Shown here: positions 4,844-14,542 of the stretch, one piece after another
Layout: each line of letters starts with the position of its first letter
Position numbering within the stretch: position 1 is the first letter of the stretch
Assembly (NCBI GenBank): GCA_000739535.1
Contig: DF820470.1
Location: 119,581-182,452 of the forward strand
DNA: 62,872 nt
Source of the DNA: Candidatus Vecturithrix granuli
Lineage (GTDB): Bacteria; Moduliflexota; Moduliflexia; Moduliflexales; Moduliflexaceae
Reading direction: 5' to 3'
Notes under the pieces: model-generated
The model's database searches: none
What the model was told of the DNA's origin: nothing
Seen by the model: the letters and a program-made list of their open reading frames with translations, nothing else
Position numbers and translations under genes: made by a program

Positions 4844-6244
4844 TTATTGTTCTTGCTTTTCGTTCAGCAAATACACCTCGGTTATATTCTCGTGGTAATC
4901 GAATCGCTTTTTCTTGATTCGCAACATCCGAATCCCATGTTTCCAAAGCCATTGATCTACATCTTGCGGGATTTCTTCGCGAGCCAGGGAATATATAAGC
5001 CACACTCGCTGTTTGTCAGCGATATGTTGTTCCAAACTTAAAATAGCGGTTTTCCCTTCTTGTAAGTTAGGGATTGGTGTGACTTGAAAAGCAGGAAGAT
5101 AATATCGTAAAACACTGATCCAGCTCGCAGAAAGAATAATATCGCCAGGTTGATAATGGTCGTTGATAAATTTTGCGGCGGAGCGATAATCATGGCGATC
5201 TCCATCCTGATAGTGACTGACAAAAGAAGGGAGTGGAAGCAGAATAAAAACCATGGACATAGCAAGCGCGATAAGTCGGGATTGCTTTTTGACCTGTTCA
5301 TACATGAGGGCGACAAAACGGGCGGCTAATATGAAAAATGCTACTGTGGAAGCAAATACATAATCTTGACGGAAAGGCAGGAATAATGGGGCCAATATCG
5401 CGACGACAATGACTATGATAACAACTACACCCCACAAACGATCCGATGCATCTTTACTATACCACATTGCCCACCACCAACCAGCACAGGCTGTTAACGT
5501 AATTCCCCAATTCAGATTAAACGCAATTCCCATCAGGGTATGAATGCTAGTATAGCCCCAATTCTGTCTTTCACTCCAGTTTTGCCAGCCAAACCATGCC
5601 CAGAAACAAAGAAACAGGAGCAAAGGAACTCCAACGAGCAAATAACCTCTTATTGCACGCCAGGAGATGGTGGGGTGATGGCGAAGGATCTCAAAAATCA
5701 CAAATGTTCCCAGAGCCACAGGAATAACCATACTCAGGGAGTGAGTAGCGACAGTAAGTGCTGACATCAATCCTGAAAGCGCGGCCCATTTCCCATTGTT
5801 TTCTTTCCACGCAAGGGCTGCTGTCAGAAGGGCCATAGCTCCGAAAAAAAAGGCGTAAGAATAGCTACGTTGATTTTGGCTATGAAAAAGGTGCCAGGGG
5901 GATAGAAGCAATATAAACCCAAGCAGAACTGCCGTCACATGCCCATATAATCGAAATACCAAAAGAACAATGAATGCGATTGCAAGAGTCCCTGTGATAG
6001 CAACCCCCATTCGGGATTCTCTTTCACCTCTGCCAAACAGTTGATAGGTAATGTGCTGCAAATAATATGCTAATGGGTCAGGGGGAATTTTGTCTTCAAG
6101 CGCTTTGACCTGAAGAAACGTGCTGGTTTCATCCCCCCAAAAACTCCAATCAAGACGATAAAATCGGGTCATTGCTCCTAACAATAAGAATGTGAAGACG
6201 ATAATCCATGTAAATTTTGACCAGCGATAAACATTGTTATTCAT
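4844..6244 (-). CDS. GT39-like membrane glycosyltransferase
   Basis: A polytopic membrane protein of 466 aa. The first predicted membrane helix is followed by a loop with FWGDETS, which matches the acidic D-E motif in the first extracytoplasmic loop of the PMT/ArnT (GT39, GT-C) superfamily. Around nine to eleven hydrophobic helices follow and the C-terminal 110 residues form a soluble domain. GT-C enzymes use lipid-linked sugars to glycosylate lipids or proteins outside the membrane. An AAGGAG Shine-Dalgarno precedes the ATG. It could transfer a sugar made by the neighbouring pathway; donor and acceptor cannot be read from the sequence. Confidence 0.75.
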   Translation of the reverse strand: MNNNVYRWSKFTWIIVFTFLLLGAMTRFYRLDWSFWGDETSTFLQVKALEDKIPPDPLAYYLQHITYQLFGRGERESRMGVAITGTLAIAFIVLLVFRLYGHVTAVLLGFILLLSPWHLFHSQNQRSYSYAFFFGAMALLTAALAWKENNGKWAALSGLMSALTVATHSLSMVIPVALGTFVIFEILRHHPTISWRAIRGYLLVGVPLLLFLCFWAWFGWQNWSERQNWGYTSIHTLMGIAFNLNWGITLTACAGWWWAMWYSKDASDRLWGVVVIIVIVVAILAPLFLPFRQDYVFASTVAFFILAARFVALMYEQVKKQSRLIALAMSMVFILLPLPSFVSHYQDGDRHDYRSAAKFINDHYQPGDIILSASWISVLRYYLPAFQVTPIPNLQEGKTAILSLEQHIADKQRVWLIYSLAREEIPQDVDQWLWKHGIRMLRIKKKRFDYHENITEVYLLNEKQEQ

Positions 6245-6410
6245 AAATTCTTCTCCTTCTTGTAAACGATGGCCCTCATTTTTACAATTCTAACCAAGCA
6301 ACAATAGGCAAAACTGTACCATGAAGCAGTCAGAGTTTGTCAAGACAGAAGATAGTGATCTTTAAATTATCTTCCTATCCGGTGAATTCATTGGGCAGTT
6401 TGAAGAAATG

Positions 6411-6445
6411 CCCTCTTGCGAAGATAGAAGATTTTCGCAAGAGGG
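6411..6445 (-). terminator. Hairpin after the M23/golvesin gene
   Basis: CCCTCTTGCGAA pairs with TTCGCAAGAGGG around an 11-base loop, 32 bases past the minus-strand stop codon at 6477. The stem is long and stable, the U-tract is weak (CATTTCTT). Confidence 0.55.
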
Positions 6446-6476
6446 AATGATTGAAAATTTTCAGAGGCGTTTCAAA

Positions 6477-9400
6477 TTAAGAGAAGTTGTTATCTTTTTT
6501 TGACAATTCTTTCTCTATGATCCGCCTTAAAACAATACGTCTGAACAGAAAGATCCCTATCAGACCCGAACCGACGAGGAAGAGCGTGTTCAGTTCAGGA
6601 ATACCCAAAACGGTGATGTCAACAGCATCAATGACAAGTTCAGGAACAGCGGCAATCCTCGTACTATCATCGCTCATAAGACCAAGTTCAACGATATTAG
6701 CTGCTTCAGTATCAGAATCAACCTGGAGAAGTTCAAAGACGGATGACATTTCCAATCCGACAAGTTCAGATACACCAGAAACTTCGTTAACAGCGAGAGT
6801 GGCGAATTCAGAGGAATCGGCAGATAGAGTACGAGTGGTGACAAGGGGCGATGTAAATAAGGCGGTCGTTTCAGTATCCTTTGCCGAAGAATCCCATACA
6901 AAGCGAAAGGCATCTGCGACAACCTCTCCTTTTAATGTACTGGATAGCACCACAGAATTACTCTCCCCTGCTTCAAAAAGAAATGTTCCGAGGTACTTCC
7001 ACTCTTTGTAATAATTGGTAAAATCAACGACAACCTGATCTTGCTGTCCCGCATGATTAATAGTAATTACGGCATTGGTCGCTCTTGAACTTGAAGATGA
7101 ACTAAAGGCATCACGCCACCATCCATAGACCTGATAATTTCCGGTTTCAGGGATATTAGGTGTCCAGGAAGCTGTTGAACGGCCCTTACTCACAGAGGCA
7201 ATCAAAAAATCTGATCCGTAAAATCCCATTATATTGGTGGTGCTTTCCCAATCGCCGGAATACTGAAATTCAGGGTCATCATTGTCGATGATAATCCCAC
7301 TTTCAGTTTTGCTACAGCTTCCGTCTGTCTGCGAAACACCCGTCTCACACCCACAGACAATGCTATTTTCTACCAGATATCCACCTGTTATACATCGCAG
7401 AGGTTTTGTCGCAGAACAGGCGTCAACAAGGGTGCCATCCGGACACTGTTCAGGAGGATTTGAGTTGTACGTCATTCTGGAAAGAATAAACTCATAGGCA
7501 TTCTCGTGATCGCTCAAATCAGAAATATACCCTCCATAAAAATCATAGACTCGCTTGATTTCAAGATGAATATGGAGTCCGGAAGGCGCCCATCCTGTTT
7601 CCCCCACTATTCCAAGAACAGTTCCTTTCGGAAGAAATTCTCCTATACTAAAACGATCTGCAGGGGAATCAGCAAGATGGTTATACCAGGAATAGACATA
7701 CTCTCCATTTGGTAAAAGGTGCTTGATCATAATCGCGTTCCCAAATCCATTAAAGCTTTGTACCCATCCATTGGCAATATTAAGAGCATTAACGTCAGTG
7801 CGATAGACTGCAAAGTCGGTTCCGGCATGATAACCACTTTGTTCTAATCGTTTATTGCCAAAGGCCTGGAAAATAAAAAAGTCTTGTTCTTCAATGGGCC
7901 ATATAAACTCATACGCCACAATATCAGAATCACTCACAATCACGTAATCGGATTTGAAAATCGTCTCTTCCTGATTATTACTATCTGTCACGGTGAGTTG
8001 GACCGTGTACGTGCCAGGTTCCTCGTAACTATGGGTTGGATGTTGCTCAGTACTCGTGGTCCCATCTCCGAACTCCCACAGCCAACTCACAATCTCACCC
8101 AGAGAATTATCCGTGAATTGTACTTCTAACGGAGCCAAACCTGTCAGAGGAGTCGCCGTAAAATCTGCTTCAAGTGACAAAGTAGATTGAAATTTTATAG
8201 CATCTGCTACCGGATTGCCATCGGTCTCATTGGTTACCACCACGGTGGTTTCCCCCGCCAGGAAATGATACGTGCCTAAATCATTCCATTGTCCTCCATT
8301 ACTCTGCTGATCAACTTCGATTCTGGCTGATCCCTCAGCATGCGTGATGATGTATGGCACATTCGAGGCTCTGGTCGAATACGGGCTTGACCACCAGGCC
8401 GACACTCGATAGTCGCCCTCTTCTGGAATCGTGATCGTCCAGATTGCCTTGTCTGTCCCATCCCCGCCATAGCTCCACTGATAGTTATTGCCATAATAAC
8501 CTGAAATCAAAGTTGAGAAAGGCCAATCTCCAACTGTGCTAAACTTACTATCTTCATTGTCGATAATCATGACTGTCCAAGAGGGCGTTACCGTCGGGGT
8601 TGCCGTCGGTACAGGCGTCGGAGTCACTGTTGGAATAGGCGTTGGAGTCACGGTCGGGATAGGCGTGGGCGTCGGGGTTGATACCGCCACCTCGAGTTTC
8701 ACGGCATCAGCCACCGGCACGTTATCAGCGTCATTACTTAACACCACGGTCGTCGTCCCGGCCAGAAAATGATAGATCCCTAACGGATTCCATTGCCCCC
8801 CATTACTCCGCTGATCCGCCTCAACTCGCGTTGTTCCCTGAGCATGGGTGATCGTATAGGGAGCATTCGACGGTCTGGTCGAATACGGATTCGACCACCA
8901 GGCTGATACCTGATAATCCCCTTCCACCGGAATGTAAAAAGTCCAGATGGCTTTGCTGGTCCCCGTCCCGGCATAGCTCCACTGGTAGTTCGTCCCATAA
9001 TACCCGGATACCAGGGTAGAAGCAGGCCAGTCACCCACCACGCTGAAATCACTCTCACTGTTATCAATAATCTTGCTTGTCCAGAGTTCTGAAATAGTGA
9101 TATATCGAGTTTTCGTGAGAGTGTCTTCCTGACTATCACCCGTGATGGTCAGACTCACGGAGTAGGTCCCCGGGGTAGAATAGATGTGGGTCGGATGTTG
9201 CTCTCTACTCGTGGTGCCATCTCCAAACTCCCACAGCCAATTCGTGATCGTTCCCTGAGACTGATCTGTAAACGACACCTCTAACGGGGCGACCCCTATC
9301 AATGGACCTGCGACAAAATCGGCCTTTATGGACACGGACTCCAGTTTTACGGCATCGGCGACCGGATTGTTGTCAGCGTCATTACTCAACACGACAGTCG

Positions 9401-9809
9401 CTGTCCCGGCCTGGAACTGATAGGTGCCTAACGGGTTCCATTGTCCTCCATTACTTCGCTGATCAACCACAACTTTGGTGGCACCATTCGCATGATTGAT
9501 CGTATATGGGGCATTTGACGCTCGCGTCGAATACGGGCTCGACCACCAGGCAGATACCTGATAGTACCCCGTCGCCGGGACGGTAAATGTCCACGTTGCT
9601 CTCCTGGAGCCAGTACCTGCATACGCCCAGTGATAATTGCTCCCATAATACCCAGGCACTGTAGTAGAGGTGTACCAGCTTCCAACCGTACTGAACCCCG
9701 CATCCTTATTATCAATAGTGATAATATCAGCCTGGAGGACAGGGGATATTCCTGTTATCAATATTACACTACATATAACGATGAAAACAGATCTTCTTCT
9801 CATACTCAT
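6477..9809 (-). CDS. Secreted M23 metallopeptidase with golvesin-like and PKD domains, PEP-CTERM-type anchor
   Basis: Protein of 1110 aa. Order: signal peptide (1-27), golvesin-like domain 1 (30-160), PKD 1 (160-243), golvesin-like 2 (245-375), a Pro/Thr linker of repeated PTPTP units (374-410), golvesin-like 3 (415-540), PKD 2 (543-626), peptidase M23 (632-770), a Cys-containing linker (777-833), golvesin-like 4 (835-973), then a tail ending in IPELNT, a hydrophobic helix and an Arg cluster (1068-1090), a PEP-CTERM variant. M23 zinc ligands appear as HAGTD (about 662) and HIH (about 748). The likely role is cleavage or binding of peptidoglycan or matrix at the surface. The ATG at 9809 is chosen because GAGGAGG lies six to eight bases upstream; a GTG at 9851 lacks this. 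Its leader holds a c-di-GMP riboswitch candidate. Confidence 0.85.
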   Translation of the reverse strand: MSMRRRSVFIVICSVILITGISPVLQADIITIDNKDAGFSTVGSWYTSTTVPGYYGSNYHWAYAGTGSRRATWTFTVPATGYYQVSAWWSSPYSTRASNAPYTINHANGATKVVVDQRSNGGQWNPLGTYQFQAGTATVVLSNDADNNPVADAVKLESVSIKADFVAGPLIGVAPLEVSFTDQSQGTITNWLWEFGDGTTSREQHPTHIYSTPGTYSVSLTITGDSQEDTLTKTRYITISELWTSKIIDNSESDFSVVGDWPASTLVSGYYGTNYQWSYAGTGTSKAIWTFYIPVEGDYQVSAWWSNPYSTRPSNAPYTITHAQGTTRVEADQRSNGGQWNPLGIYHFLAGTTTVVLSNDADNVPVADAVKLEVAVSTPTPTPIPTVTPTPIPTVTPTPVPTATPTVTPSWTVMIIDNEDSKFSTVGDWPFSTLISGYYGNNYQWSYGGDGTDKAIWTITIPEEGDYRVSAWWSSPYSTRASNVPYIITHAEGSARIEVDQQSNGGQWNDLGTYHFLAGETTVVVTNETDGNPVADAIKFQSTLSLEADFTATPLTGLAPLEVQFTDNSLGEIVSWLWEFGDGTTSTEQHPTHSYEEPGTYTVQLTVTDSNNQEETIFKSDYVIVSDSDIVAYEFIWPIEEQDFFIFQAFGNKRLEQSGYHAGTDFAVYRTDVNALNIANGWVQSFNGFGNAIMIKHLLPNGEYVYSWYNHLADSPADRFSIGEFLPKGTVLGIVGETGWAPSGLHIHLEIKRVYDFYGGYISDLSDHENAYEFILSRMTYNSNPPEQCPDGTLVDACSATKPLRCITGGYLVENSIVCGCETGVSQTDGSCSKTESGIIIDNDDPEFQYSGDWESTTNIMGFYGSDFLIASVSKGRSTASWTPNIPETGNYQVYGWWRDAFSSSSSSRATNAVITINHAGQQDQVVVDFTNYYKEWKYLGTFLFEAGESNSVVLSSTLKGEVVADAFRFVWDSSAKDTETTALFTSPLVTTRTLSADSSEFATLAVNEVSGVSELVGLEMSSVFELLQVDSDTEAANIVELGLMSDDSTRIAAVPELVIDAVDITVLGIPELNTLFLVGSGLIGIFLFRRIVLRRIIEKELSKKDNNFS

Positions 9810-9854
9810 TTTCCCCTCCTCAATAATGTTTTCTAGCGTTTTTGTTCGCACGTC

Positions 9855-9955
9855 ATAAAAAAAACCGGGTTACCCTTCAGGCAACCCGGCTATCTTCAAA
9901 AAGACCCGCAGCTTTCCGTCCTTATCTCTCGATAAGTTTGGCTTTATCTATATTT
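9855..9955 (-). promoter_or_regulatory. Cyclic-di-GMP-I (GEMM) riboswitch with overlapping terminator
   Basis: Read on the minus strand from about 9950: AAAGCCAAAC, a perfect CUUAUC-GAGA-GAUAAG hairpin with a GNRA tetraloop (9921-9936), GGACGGAAAGC, GCGGGUCUU, then GAAGAUAGCCGGGUUGCC. These blocks occur in the order and spacing of the GEMM-I aptamer: CAAAC, GNRA-capped P1b, GGACGxAAAGC, and the 3' UAGCCGGGUUGCC receptor strand. The last block also forms the 5' arm of a terminator (CCGGGUUGCC with GGGUAACCCGG, 9865-9889) followed by eight U. Ligand binding should therefore block termination and switch the M23/golvesin gene on. This is read by eye, without a covariance model. Confidence 0.82.
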
Positions 9956-10621
9956 TTTGTTTCTTCTATATGTTTTTACCTCATATTTTCTGCAATATAT
10001 GTACCAAATTAAAGCATTTTAGAAAAAGATAGTTTTATAGTCTTGGGTTTCCAGCATTTTACGAACAGTTTAAGGATGAAAAATTTTTTTCAAGAGAGAA
10101 TATTTCAGAGATTTTACATCTCAAACTTCGCTCATTTTGTAAAATTTTTCGACATGTACTTTTTTAAATTTCCTGGAATTACTCTCATGTAAGGTATATT
10201 GGGAAAATTTTCGAACTGTCGATAAATTTTACACCTTATTTAACTAATTTTACAACTCATTGATTTTATTAAATTTATGTTAATTAAGAACTGTAAAAAA
10301 AATCGACAGGCTTTTGGAGGAAGATAAGATTGGCATGATTTACGCTTATAACTAGAGAGCTATAAGATATCGTATTCGAGACAGTTGCTTCGATGAGAGT
10401 TGTTTCGCTATGGTCGCCTGATTCATGATAGAAGGCGAAGTCTCAATATATGGCCTCCGTTCACGACAGATATCAGGCGACCACCATGCGTTCTCGTCAA
10501 TCCTTTGAGAGGGTTTCATCATTCAACCTCTTTTCTTCTCGTTGATGATGAAACCATCATTTATAACCCCTCTGATTCAATGCAAGTGAATAGTGTTACA
10601 TATAATATCTGCAATGGCAGA
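9956..10621. other. Long AT-rich spacer with inverted repeats
   Basis: About 670 bases without a convincing gene. 9956-10330 is very AT-rich and should contain the promoter for the riboswitch leader. 10411-10555 holds two inverted repeats: TGGTCGCCTGAT (10411-10422) with ATCAGGCGACCA (10472-10483), and GGTTTCATCAT (10512-10522) with ATGATGAAACC (10545-10555). They may serve as the 3' processing or termination region of the PEP-CTERM gene ending at 10622, or be a decayed palindromic repeat. Confidence 0.5.
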
Positions 10622-13600
10622 TTAGTGAGTGATGATGCGTCGTTTAATTGCAATGATTCCAAGAAATCCCAGACCAATTAGCAGCAGAGTTGCGGGTTCG
10701 GGAACTGGTGCGATCTCTGTACGGCAATCAATGGCCTGTACCCCTCGGATCACCCAATTGTTTTCATAAATATCAAGGTACCACCATCCACCAGCCATAT
10801 CTACCGAAAGGAGAATCATGGCATTCAAAGTATCCTTTGAATCAGTTACCCATAACCCCGTATAATTTCCGAAATCGTCAAACTCATACCCCCAGACAGC
10901 CAAATCGTGGACACCATCATTTCCATAAGCATTCAGGGTGACACCATATCCGCTGTGAAGATAGTTCTTGATTGTTTCCATTAAATGGCTTCCATTACTC
11001 CACTGTCCATCAGAGAAATTCGCCCAATCTTCGTAAAAGTAATCAAAAAAATTATACTCTCCCCAATAATTGCCTGATCCGGTGAAATCAACTTGAGATG
11101 GACTTTCCTCGATAGTTGGTTGGTAGCCATTCAACCACCATGACCAACCATATTTCACATCGCCGAGGTCATCAGTCCAATGGGTTTCCATATTTTCAAA
11201 AATTGCCTGAGCTGTTTCATAAATTGGAGTATCCCAACCGGCCCATTTAAGGATATTGGCTGCCGCGGCCGCCCAGGCCATATTATCGGTAATTGTTTGG
11301 GTTGCATCGTGCCATGAACCTCCAAATTCTTCAAAACCAAAATATGATGTCGTCAGAATTTTCTGAAATTGAGCTTCTATGGTGTGATTCATCTGCACAT
11401 TCGTAAAGGTGTAGGTTGTGATACTCCCCTGGGCAATCCCGTCAACGTACACTTGTGCGATCTGATACCCAGTGTTTGGCGCCACGGTGAATGTCTTATC
11501 AGTTCCCTGAGTGATATGGATCTCGCCATTTGGGGTGATTGCTCCCCCTTCTCCTGCACCGGCACGAATGGTATAGGTCGTAAGGCTTGGTTGAAATTGA
11601 GCTTCTATGGTATGATTCATCTGCACATTCGTAAAGGTGTAGGTTGTGAGGCTCCCCTGGGCAATCCCATCAACAACCAACTGTGTAATCTGATACCCGG
11701 CGTTCGGCGTCACGGTGAACGTCTTATCTGTTCCCTGAGTGATATGGATCTCGCCATTTGGGGTGATTGTTCCCCCTTCTCCTGCACTGGCATGAATGGT
11801 ATAGGTCGTAAGGCTTGGTTGAAATTGAGCTTCTATAGTGTGATTCATCTGCACATTCGTAAAGGTGTAGGTTGTGATGCTCCCCTGGGCAATCCCGTCA
11901 ACAACCACCTGTGTGATCTGATACCCAGTGTTCGGCGTCACGGTGAATGTCTTATCCGTTCCCTGAGTGATACGGATTTCGCCATTTGGGGAGATCGTTC
12001 CCCCTTCTCCTGCACTGGCATGAATGGTATAGGTCGGGATTTCTTTAAATGTAGCAAGAACTTCTTTTGTACTATCGATTGTAATGGTGCAAGCATTAGT
12101 TCCAGTACAGTCCCCAGACCATCCATCAAAAAGGGAGTCAGGGTTGGGGGTTGCCGCCAGTGTTAAGATTGTCCCTTGTTTGTATGCTTCTGAACAATCA
12201 GAGGGACAATCTATTCCCTGTAAGTCGCTTGTCACTACACCTGTTCCTGAGCCTGATGTATTGACTGTCAGTGTATGCTTTACCGAAAGAGTTCCAACTT
12301 TCCAGACATGAATTACTGGCTGAGAATCTTCTCCAGAGCTCTCTGCCAGGTATAAATAACCATTAACATTATCATAGGCTATTGCGGACATAGAGGGATA
12401 TTGCTCATCTTTTTTAATCAGGGTATTGGTAATATCTATAGAATAATATGCTTTAGGTTCCCATGATTCTATCTCACCTTTAGCAACTTTTCCAAGTTCA
12501 ACTGGATTATAAAATTTTAACATACATTTTGTTTGGCTAGAATTGTAACCGCGAATCATCGAATGAGTTGTTGAGGGAATATCCTGATCACTTAACTCAG
12601 CAGAATCTCCATCTTCCCCACCGTACCATACATCACCATTAGGCCTGATCCCTACAAAAACCAGTGCGGACTTTTGTCCCGTTTCAAGCCAGACTGCTCC
12701 ATCATTCGCACTCATTGGAGTCCAATTTGTGTCCCAATGTTCCATTTCATCAGTTGGTTCATAGCCGAGTAATTTGACAGCACTTACAAAACCGCCATTT
12801 TCAGGTAAATGACCCCTTTCCCATGGGGCAGTAGCATAGAGGGTGGGACCACAGGAAGGCCAACCATGGCCACTTATTGGCCAGCCAAGACCAACAAGCA
12901 GAGATCTTCCACCAGTATACTGGTCCGCCCAATTTTGGGGAACTGCTACGATAAATTTGCCAGTATAACGAACATCTACCCTCTCTGAAGAACCTAAAGG
13001 CCCGCCTATATGCCAGGCGCCAATTGAATCGGTGAGAGCCATATTGAAATAGCCATGCGCTGGTGCAGTTAATGAAGTAGAGTAAGATTTGTATAACCCA
13101 TAGTAAATTCCTTCCAGAACCCCATTCATACTCGGATGATAGGCTATTCCAACCCCATTTGACACACTTCCTGCCGGTAACCAGTCTCCATTATATACTC
13201 TTGGCCAGATATTTACAAAAGGTTTTAAGGTTCTTGCCCTTAGCATATTGGATGTATTGAGAGTCTTGGTCGGTTTAGGAATGCTGATTTCAGAGATTTC
13301 TATACGATGATCGTGACCTATCCCATAGAGAGAACCGGGGAATTCTGTTGCAGGATTATAATTAGGATTTCCTTTGGGGTAGAATGTCAATCCTTGACCA
13401 CCATACTCCCAATCACTATCAGTTGGTAATGTAAAGCCACCTAAATATTCCAAATCCTCAAACGGATTAATTAGGGAATCCGAAGTAACTGTAGGTGTCG
13501 TGATCGAAGTAGTGGCAGGGGCACTCTCATTTCCTAATCTAGCCTGAAAATCATTGGCAGGAGAAGGGTAATACCCATTTTTGGTATTATCAATTGCTGT

Positions 13601-14542
13601 TACAGAATAATGATAGGTTGTATTGGAGGCAACATTGGAATCTATATACTGAATATTCTCTCCCCAATAGATTGTCCAGTCGCTATTTACTGTATCGTAT
13701 AACTCTCCATTCCGATAGATAAAATAGCGAGATATACCTGAAGGATCGGCGTTATTTGATCCTGGCGGATCTGGAGGTTGATTCCAGGTTAGTTCTACAA
13801 GATTATTATCAGTGTCTTGCGACAGAGATGTTAAATGAGCCTTAAGGTTAATCGGTGATAAAGGGGGAGTTATGTCGGCATTTTTCAACTCTATCTTTGT
13901 TAAGACAATTTCACCGAAGGAGCTATCATAATCATGAGCAATATTTATGTTTACAACATCATGGAATCCTTCAGTCGGAAGAGCTAGTGGGGCATTTATA
14001 TGAGCCTGATCTGTAATATTAAATATCAACTCACCAGTTTGATGACCGTCTAAAGTTAAATAACCCTCTCTTTCCTCATAGTACATGGTATTCCATGGGG
14101 TATCGAATGTGGCTCCTTTTGGCGAATCCTTGTCTGAAAAACTTATTCTGGCCATTATTCTTCTTGACTGGCCTGTGGCATTATAAAAAGTGGCAACAAT
14201 CTTTTGGCCGTATTGAAAGTGAATAGGAGTCGTTCCTTTTATCCCGATATAAGGAAGATGTTTATCTGGAGTATTTCTCGTATCAGTAATTCCAGCATGT
14301 TGCGGATTTCCGTCAGGATTCACATAAGTTGTATATTGCGGATGCCTTATGACCTGATTCCATCCATCAATCTCAAATTGATTTTCTTGTTCATTCTTGC
14401 CAAAATCAACAAGTACTCCGAGAGTTGGGTTACTATCATCAGAAAAAGAGTAAGGAATATGAACAAAAAGAATAACTATTGCTAAAACTATAGAGCTTAC
14501 TATTAACTTTTTCATAACACGATTGATCTGTAGAATACCCAT
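10622..14542 (-). CDS. Giant PEP-CTERM protein with IdeS/C39-like domain lacking the catalytic Cys
   Basis: Protein of 1306 aa: signal peptide, N-terminal beta domain, a fibronectin-III-like stretch (about 228-338), a 390-residue region I do not recognise (about 361-755, possibly a beta-propeller), four tandem repeats of the Flg_new_2/InlB-B type (about 757-1064; the last three nearly identical), a papain-like domain of the IdeS/C39 kind (1066-1270), and VPEPATLLLIGLGFLG with an Arg pair (1278-1302), a textbook PEP-CTERM signal. The protease domain keeps VHDLAVWGYEF (His) and VTDSKD (Asp) but where relatives read D-N-x-C-W-A-A it has DNMAWAA; the Ala codon is at 11276-11278. It is probably a surface-anchored binding protein. 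The start is uncertain; ATG at 14515 is an alternative. Confidence 0.8.
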   Translation of the reverse strand: MGILQINRVMKKLIVSSIVLAIVILFVHIPYSFSDDSNPTLGVLVDFGKNEQENQFEIDGWNQVIRHPQYTTYVNPDGNPQHAGITDTRNTPDKHLPYIGIKGTTPIHFQYGQKIVATFYNATGQSRRIMARISFSDKDSPKGATFDTPWNTMYYEEREGYLTLDGHQTGELIFNITDQAHINAPLALPTEGFHDVVNINIAHDYDSSFGEIVLTKIELKNADITPPLSPINLKAHLTSLSQDTDNNLVELTWNQPPDPPGSNNADPSGISRYFIYRNGELYDTVNSDWTIYWGENIQYIDSNVASNTTYHYSVTAIDNTKNGYYPSPANDFQARLGNESAPATTSITTPTVTSDSLINPFEDLEYLGGFTLPTDSDWEYGGQGLTFYPKGNPNYNPATEFPGSLYGIGHDHRIEISEISIPKPTKTLNTSNMLRARTLKPFVNIWPRVYNGDWLPAGSVSNGVGIAYHPSMNGVLEGIYYGLYKSYSTSLTAPAHGYFNMALTDSIGAWHIGGPLGSSERVDVRYTGKFIVAVPQNWADQYTGGRSLLVGLGWPISGHGWPSCGPTLYATAPWERGHLPENGGFVSAVKLLGYEPTDEMEHWDTNWTPMSANDGAVWLETGQKSALVFVGIRPNGDVWYGGEDGDSAELSDQDIPSTTHSMIRGYNSSQTKCMLKFYNPVELGKVAKGEIESWEPKAYYSIDITNTLIKKDEQYPSMSAIAYDNVNGYLYLAESSGEDSQPVIHVWKVGTLSVKHTLTVNTSGSGTGVVTSDLQGIDCPSDCSEAYKQGTILTLAATPNPDSLFDGWSGDCTGTNACTITIDSTKEVLATFKEIPTYTIHASAGEGGTISPNGEIRITQGTDKTFTVTPNTGYQITQVVVDGIAQGSITTYTFTNVQMNHTIEAQFQPSLTTYTIHASAGEGGTITPNGEIHITQGTDKTFTVTPNAGYQITQLVVDGIAQGSLTTYTFTNVQMNHTIEAQFQPSLTTYTIRAGAGEGGAITPNGEIHITQGTDKTFTVAPNTGYQIAQVYVDGIAQGSITTYTFTNVQMNHTIEAQFQKILTTSYFGFEEFGGSWHDATQTITDNMAWAAAAANILKWAGWDTPIYETAQAIFENMETHWTDDLGDVKYGWSWWLNGYQPTIEESPSQVDFTGSGNYWGEYNFFDYFYEDWANFSDGQWSNGSHLMETIKNYLHSGYGVTLNAYGNDGVHDLAVWGYEFDDFGNYTGLWVTDSKDTLNAMILLSVDMAGGWWYLDIYENNWVIRGVQAIDCRTEIAPVPEPATLLLIGLGFLGIIAIKRRIITH
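11350..12040 (-). repeat. Three tandem 228-bp coding repeats
   Basis: Within the PEP-CTERM gene, three consecutive units of about 76 codons are nearly identical at the DNA level, for example the segment encoding TYTFTNVQMNHTIEAQFQ recurs with almost no changes. Such uniformity suggests recent duplication or gene conversion and makes the region prone to copy-number change and assembly error. An upstream fourth unit (about 12035-12275) is diverged. Confidence 0.85.

Follow-up and report, generated by a model that had tools for sequence, protein, structure and literature searches.

A candidate c-di-GMP riboswitch precedes a golvesin-PKD-M23 protein gene in Candidatus Vecturithrix granuli

When would a bacterium make a protein that sets a cell-wall peptidase among golvesin-like and PKD modules, and where would such a protein act? 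The question is raised by a gene at positions 6477-9809, reverse strand, of a 62,872-nucleotide stretch of DNA from Candidatus Vecturithrix granuli (contig DF820470.1, positions 119,581 to 182,452; hereafter the window). An earlier note on this DNA had described the protein from its sequence and missed what is the best clue to when it is made, a cyclic di-guanosine monophosphate (c-di-GMP) riboswitch in the leader of the gene. The domain make-up, the intact active-site residues, the riboswitch, the overlapping terminator and the regulon described below were computed, and on them we build a reading that we somewhat favor: the product would be a c-di-GMP-induced, secreted, sugar-tethered M23 peptidoglycan endopeptidase made in the sessile, high-c-di-GMP state. 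More tentatively, we propose that a genome-wide c-di-GMP riboswitch regulon turns on surface proteins with two kinds of tail, PEP-CTERM and an undescribed (Y)LLWT(K/R), and that the M23 enzyme described here, tied through it to the biofilm state, is a wall endopeptidase held in the matrix.

A riboswitch and a terminator share a strand in the leader

The gene and its leader comprise the following features.

6477..9809 (-), golvesin-PKD-M23 coding sequence, 1110 residues from ATG (open reading frame list, translation, domains)
9813..9820 (-), ribosome-binding site AGGAGGGG before the ATG at 9809 (read from the sequence)
9863..9891 (-), terminator hairpin with a 13-pair stem, then a T run: putative expression platform
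9876..9951 (-), c-di-GMP-I riboswitch aptamer, best Rfam model c-di-GMP-I-GGC, RF03167 (cmscan)

The aptamer scored 70.4 bits (E 2.7e-15), above the gathering score of 59, and was found again when the whole window was scanned. Its 3' strand is the 5' arm of the terminator, the two overlapping by 15 bases. The hairpin at 9863-9891 has a minimum free energy of -22.3 kcal/mol (z -5.36), and none of 200 shuffled sequences folded as well. A terminator-pattern scan of 6240-10400 returned two sites versus 3.6 in shuffles, so that the case for this terminator is carried by the strength and place of the hairpin. Aptamer and terminator appear mutually exclusive, a layout that suggests an ON switch. Members of this riboswitch class that respond to cyclic GMP-AMP (cGAMP) are marked by an A at the equivalent of Vc2 position 20. 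By eye, and in what we take to be Vc2 numbering, the present leader has a G at the equivalent of position 20 and an A at that of 47; because of the G, c-di-GMP rather than cGAMP is the predicted ligand.

Downstream of the leader the coding sequence is one unbroken open reading frame (ORF), for which the ATG at 9809, behind AGGAGGGG, is the best start. The longest reading of the frame begins at GTG 9851, which is less likely because it sits right behind the terminator and lacks a strong ribosome-binding site. Consensus promoters around the gene numbered eight versus a mean of 7.9 in shuffles, which is chance level, and we therefore claim none. Beyond the stop codon, a hairpin at about 6411-6445 was seen by eye and was absent from the pattern-scan output.

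The riboswitch is one of at least 29 in the genome

Scoring 150 of 807 first-look candidates gave 29 c-di-GMP-I riboswitch matches at E <= 0.001 in this genome, a minimum number, of which 17 lie above the gathering score; in three further genomes of the phylum the numbers are 3, 4 and 4. We defined a strong T-tailed hairpin as one of -11.5 kcal/mol or better and shuffled each sequence ten times as a control (290 sequences). Such a hairpin follows 23 of the 29 aptamers versus 6 of 290 shuffles, and it overlaps the aptamer in 18 copies, the present one counted, versus none of the 290. At the position that we equate with Vc2 G20, 25 copies (this gene's included) have G and four (L023, L029, L032 and L033) have A, from which part of the regulon may answer to cGAMP. 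The genome encodes 20 GGDEF domains.

The 29 riboswitches, among them one tandem pair and one triple, stand before 26 transcription units, as assigned by reading the next ORF on the strand. Twelve of the units, counting this gene, contain a PEP-CTERM-type match. With 26 such matches genome-wide and 6000-8000 genes assumed, an overlap of this size has a chance probability of 2e-23 to 6e-25. The twelve include L049, whose frame is broken at an N in a Thr-Pro repeat, and L117, L118 and L120, in which more protein follows the motif in frame. A further eight units hold a gene ending in LLWT(K/R) or ILWTK, one of which, L035, has the weakest riboswitch match (35.3 bits). The remaining six are other genes, of which a FolD-like and an outer-membrane-like protein were recognised by inspection. 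It is probable that the RNA switch turns the gene on together with many other surface-protein genes. The triple array (L055, C14:491404-491910) precedes a single 1350-residue LLWTR-tailed protein, and each of its three riboswitches has its own overlapping terminator.

A second, recurrent C-terminal tail

The LLWT ending extends beyond the riboswitch units. Searching with a strict DNA pattern for YLLWT(K/R) as the last residues ahead of a stop codon gave 30 matches in this genome, and none in its reversed control or in three relatives. Of these, 28 read YLLWT(K/R), one ends in Q and one has F in place of the first Leu; the peptide is fixed while its synonymous codons vary. A crude signal-peptide rule flags 18 of the 30 ORFs, one being a 12-residue stub. 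Taken together, (L/I)LWT(K/R) looks like an undescribed C-terminal tail signal, and the open-licence literature matching LLWTK was, by title, unrelated. Example loci are L053 (C18:501845-520540) and L051 (C4:77119-90281). Contig C18 carries eleven ORFs ending in (L/I/F)LWT(K/R) on one strand within 19 kb, with four riboswitches among them. An ORF with an integron-integrase-like start (L200, C18:483524-484315) lies between the LLWTK genes at C18:477690 and C18:497060, attC-like sequences were noticed by eye after some LLWTK genes, and these genes may be mobile cassettes.

The protein joins a complete M23 site to four probable sugar-binding modules

The chain runs from a signal peptide through golvesin module 1 (G1), PKD 1, G2, a Thr-Pro linker, G3 and PKD 2 to the M23 domain, a Cys-rich module, G4 and a hydrophobic tail.

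7551..7832 (-), M23 peptidase domain with HxxxD, YNHL and HxH (Pfam PF01551, aligned ligands, fold model)
9336..9719 (-), Golvesin_C module 1 (PF25275; 132 bits in the genome search; fold model)
8688..9071 (-), Golvesin_C module 2 (PF25275), 71.1% identical to module 1
8184..8567 (-), Golvesin_C module 3 (PF25275), 62.5% identical to module 1 and 71.1% to module 2
6885..7292 (-), Golvesin_C module 4 (PF25275), divergent, 39.1-44.5% identical to modules 1-3
9093..9332 (-), PKD domain 1 (Pfam PF18911/PF00801), 62.5% identical to PKD 2
7935..8177 (-), PKD domain 2 (Pfam)
9729..9809 (-), Sec-type signal peptide, last residues LQA before the mature protein (by reading the translation, no predictor)
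8580..8681 (-), Thr-Pro-rich linker (translation)
7314..7445 (-), Cys-rich linker module, CPDGT...CSATKPLRC...CGCETG...GSC (translation)

A Pfam scan found Golvesin_C in four stretches (429.3 bits, cut-off 31.6), PKD in two stretches with each of two models (PF18911, 122.9 bits; PF00801, 93.5 bits; both above cut-off) and Peptidase_M23 in one (32.6 bits, cut-off 28.7). The earlier count of four golvesin, two PKD and one M23 domain is thereby borne out, as is the profile search proposed along with it (golvesin, PF00801, PF01551), and the earlier observation is partly confirmed, holding in large part. The Cys-rich module between M23 and G4 had no Pfam match at E <= 1.

Loss of the HxxxD/HxH zinc ligands had been named, alongside a lack of PKD or golvesin matches, as what would refute the earlier observation. 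The ligands are retained: H675/D679 (HxxxD), H725 (YNHL) and H760/H762 (HxH; P0001 numbering) are all present, and these zinc and catalytic residues align with those of solved M23 enzymes (LytU, 5kqb) and of the paralogues. A model built from 15 sequences (pLDDT, the predicted local distance difference test score, 77.7) gave 452 Foldseek matches, 14 of them at E <= 0.001, namely 13 M23/LytM-type chains and one cyanophage pre-ejectosome chain. In VIA-align the best neighbour was ShyA (Z 13.5, root-mean-square deviation 3.1, 112 residues aligned), with LytM-like 3nyy (13.4), EnvC (13.2), Csd3 (13.1) and lysostaphin (12.3) further down. The modelled domain thus has a LytM fold. Because both active enzymes and the non-catalytic LytM domain of EnvC are among its neighbours, the fold alone shows neither activity nor substrate. 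Of the earlier label, a lysostaphin-type peptidase, the M23 class stands, but a lysostaphin-like specificity should not be read into it: ShyA, Csd3 and other gram-negative M23 or LytM domains are among the neighbours, and lysostaphin scores just slightly lower.

A genome search for golvesin modules returned four matches of 100-132 bits. Modules G1 to G3 share 62.5-71.1% of their protein and just 66.4-72.4% of their DNA sequence, and for the latter reason the repeats look old rather than like an assembly artefact. In a sequence search G1 matched C-terminal residues 907-1039 of the Paenibacillus xanthan lyase 6f2p (8.1e-22), presumably the unclassified module of that enzyme. The golvesin model (5 sequences, pLDDT 74.1) had 16 Foldseek matches at E <= 0.001; 6f2p ranked first and CBM6 and CBM35 entries were among those at the next ranks, and collagen-binding domains and a Cry5B toxin structure were also included. 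The accessible part of one study reports glycan binding on an array for the carbohydrate-binding domains Cbeg4 and Cbeg5, which act as lectins in proteins of gut Bacteroides (PMC9166713), and their IPR033803-type domain is probably the same as PF25275. In view of the xanthan lyase, the CBM6 and CBM35 fold matches and these related lectin domains, the modules are best read as carbohydrate-binding, the name golvesin being historical. Open-licence literature under that name includes several Dictyostelium papers.

The C-terminal tail is a degenerate PEP-CTERM-like segment

Two features make up the end of the protein.

6537..6602 (-), degenerate PEP-CTERM-like segment IPELNTLFLVGSGLIGIFLFRR (10.1 bits, below cut-off)
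6480..6536 (-), 19-residue C-terminal extension past FRR (comparison with other PEP-CTERM matches)

The segment reaches 10.1 bits in Pfam against a PEP-CTERM cut-off of 20.7. In a search of its own genome it is the weakest of 26 matches and the sole one below cut-off (16.9 bits, E 0.107), and the NCBIfam PEP-CTERM model is not among the eight families listed for the protein at E <= 1. A hydrophobic stretch and a basic cluster LFLVGSGLIGIFLFRR are present, with 19 residues beyond them; in 20 of the other 25 matches the basic cluster lies within about 13 residues of the C-terminus. The claim that the protein is PEP-CTERM-anchored fails as it was worded: the tail reads PEL, lacking the second Pro, and misses the curated cut-off, and we have rejected a normal anchor of this kind. 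The segment still appears recognisably PEP-CTERM-like, and the genome encodes one EpsH-type exosortase (E 3.8e-76).

The ORF likewise runs on past the motif in five of the other 25 matches (L111, L117, L118, L120 and L135). In the first four, an apparent second signal peptide and a further secreted protein follow the motif and basic cluster in frame; this protein is leucine-rich-repeat (LRR)-like in L118, and LRR-like and papain/IdeS-like in L120.

Neighbouring genes and occurrence elsewhere

A WecE-type aminotransferase and a PMT_2-type membrane protein are encoded on one flank of the gene. The opposite flank has a PEP-CTERM protein, after which come an epimerase fragment, a flippase, glycosyltransferases, a transglutaminase-like gene and a lyase-like gene; between 14997 and 24442 the flippase, glycosyltransferases, epimerase fragment and lyase-like gene form a polysaccharide cluster. 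Our annotation of the neighbourhood reaches to 24442 of the window, beyond which the whole-window scan found one tRNA. The C-terminal region DNMAWAAAAANILKW of the neighbouring PEP-CTERM protein (10622-14542, reverse strand) resembles a papain-like domain by eye. The papain-like Cys, present in the related ORF L057 (DRMCWAAAASNVLFW), is Ala in this protein, which is perhaps a pseudo-enzyme.

Among four genomes of the phylum the M23 region was matched in the protein's own genome only. Golvesin occurs in two of the four, in the relative as a single copy in a 276-residue ORF, which is too short to share the architecture. A scan of genome contigs confirmed 17 of 26 candidate loci, and, judged from the query residues matched, these appear to lie mainly in the PKD stretches. 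Two plasmid records match the M23 region and seven the golvesin module, none being in both sets; the two of the seven that were examined lie in RHS-repeat proteins, with no M23 match in the part covered, and phage records had no golvesin-module match. Golvesin_C lies inside RHS-repeat proteins of two actinobacteria (L198 and L199), one with a pretoxin HINT domain. The architecture is likely rare, the databases covered being a part of sequence space. In the open-licence literature we found no work combining a c-di-GMP riboswitch with M23 and peptidoglycan.

Discussion

The mechanism that we infer assigns to this protein a ligand for its switch, an ON direction, a bound sugar, a location, a substrate and a role. 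At low c-di-GMP the leader RNA would fold as the terminator and transcription would halt; with c-di-GMP bound, the aptamer would hold on to a strand required by the terminator, and the gene would be transcribed. The protein would then be exported by its signal peptide and held by its four golvesin modules on polysaccharide, in the simplest case exopolysaccharide of the cell itself because a polysaccharide gene cluster adjoins the gene, while the degenerate tail may fix it to the envelope or slow its release. There, the zinc M23 domain would cut peptide cross-links of peptidoglycan, which could serve the remodelling or separation of cells inside the matrix or act on neighbours in contact. The make-up of the regulon, dominated by secreted, tail-bearing proteins, supports this proposal, as do the 20 GGDEF domains of the genome. 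The earlier suggestion, a cell-wall hydrolase that is targeted and either shown at the surface or set free from it, is still the best kind of explanation in view of the complete M23 site and the carbohydrate-binding fold of the golvesin modules; the anchor is its weaker part since the PEP motif is degenerate.

Several observations weigh against this proposal. The M23 score is modest, barely over its cut-off, and a six-frame genome search with PF01551 gave six matches at E <= 0.001 without this domain among them. Twelve of the 29 riboswitch matches fall below the gathering score and six lack a strong terminator in our scan, and the ligand-pocket positions were read by eye in what is presumably Vc2 numbering. 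No relative with an M23-golvesin link was found in the phylum genomes, contigs or plasmid records. Moreover, the tail motif is PEL where 24 of the 26 genome matches read PEP and one reads SEP, and because of this degeneracy surface display by an exosortase route is doubtful.

The same tail lends itself to another explanation, in which it is a plain membrane anchor that keeps the protein in the inner membrane, on the periplasmic side. The M23 domain would then serve to remodel the wall of the cell itself, and the golvesin modules would bind wall or periplasmic glycans. The PEL motif, unlike that of the other 25 matches (24 PEP, one SEP), the score below the curated cut-off and the 19 residues past FRR, where in 20 of the 25 others no more than about 13 residues separate the basic cluster from the C-terminus, all fit this explanation, as do the many solved neighbours that are gram-negative wall-remodelling or division proteins (ShyA, Csd3, DipM and EnvC). 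Sugar-binding modules, PKD modules and Thr-Pro linkers are, however, typical of extracellular proteins, and this chain has four of the first, two of the second and such a linker. Furthermore, eleven other regulon units have a proper PEP motif and this tail is still PEP-CTERM-like, and the extension is not decisive since L111, L117, L118, L120 and L135 also extend in frame. We regard the inner-membrane location as rather unlikely.

A protein held in the matrix could also be a weapon whose M23 domain lyses competitor or prey cells touching the biofilm, as lysostaphin or LasA do. Extracellular bacteriolysins (lysostaphin, LasA and beta-lytic protease) are indeed among the structural neighbours (Z 10.3-12.3), and the sugar-binding modules could direct a secreted form of the protein to foreign glycans. 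These neighbours do not, however, separate self-acting from foreign-acting enzymes, and no immunity gene was recognised alongside, the adjoining genes encoding the PMT_2-type and PEP-CTERM proteins, although such a gene is easily missed; we consider this role distinctly improbable. Nor do we give much weight to the idea of a matrix adhesin whose M23 domain is non-catalytic and has a wall-binding or structural function. The modest score is in line with it, and some M23-like proteins encoded in this genome and in related ones carry changed ligands, HLY in L002 and L182 and YLY in L180 and L181, because of which non-catalytic M23 domains appear to occur in the lineage; this copy, by contrast, retains its zinc ligands and the two catalytic histidines. 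The sequence does not separate the sugar-tethered, c-di-GMP-induced endopeptidase from these three explanations.

If the proposal is true, an RNA switch puts a wall-cutting enzyme under direct control of the biofilm signal c-di-GMP, one second messenger governs both the cutting of the wall and the building of the matrix, and a single genome displays a large riboswitch-controlled set of surface proteins. The golvesin domain would become a testable exopolysaccharide-binding module outside polysaccharide-degrading enzymes. In addition, the regulon exposes a second class of tail.

Comparison with known systems

The M23 domain shares its fold and its zinc and catalytic residues with ShyA, Csd3 and the LytM/lysostaphin group, at 13-32% identity to the M23/LytM structures in the VIA-align rows, and differs from these enzymes in being embedded in a 1110-residue chain of sugar-binding and PKD modules. 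The golvesin modules have a clear sequence and fold match in the C-terminal module of xanthan lyase (6f2p), and the lectin domains Cbeg4 and Cbeg5 are probably of the same kind; unlike those proteins, this one carries four copies alongside an M23 domain. In contrast to the pilM cGAMP riboswitch, the leader described here has a G at the position that we take to read the ligand, and the two have in common the mutual exclusion of terminator and aptamer. The pilM switch, of the GEMM class, is described in the available part of its report as an ON switch in which the aptamer excludes the terminator (PMC9262584).

The closest published parallel is Methylophaga nitratireducenticrescens GP59, for which the accessible part of one report describes four c-di-GMP riboswitches flanking genes of PEP-CTERM type (three) or VPLPA-CTERM type (one), near exopolysaccharide genes (PMC12530212). 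Counting all classes, 10 of the 11 riboswitches of that strain were higher in biofilm; the remaining one was higher in planktonic cells and lies before a PEP-CTERM gene (PMC12530212), which argues against a simple biofilm-ON rule. Like GP59, this genome has c-di-GMP riboswitches before PEP-CTERM-type genes with exopolysaccharide genes nearby; unlike GP59, it has at least 29 riboswitches, 12 units with PEP-CTERM-type matches, the M23 gene included, and (L/I)LWT(K/R) as a further class of tail. The association of c-di-GMP riboswitches with PEP-CTERM genes is thus already in print, and, as far as our searches show, its scale here and its M23 member are new.

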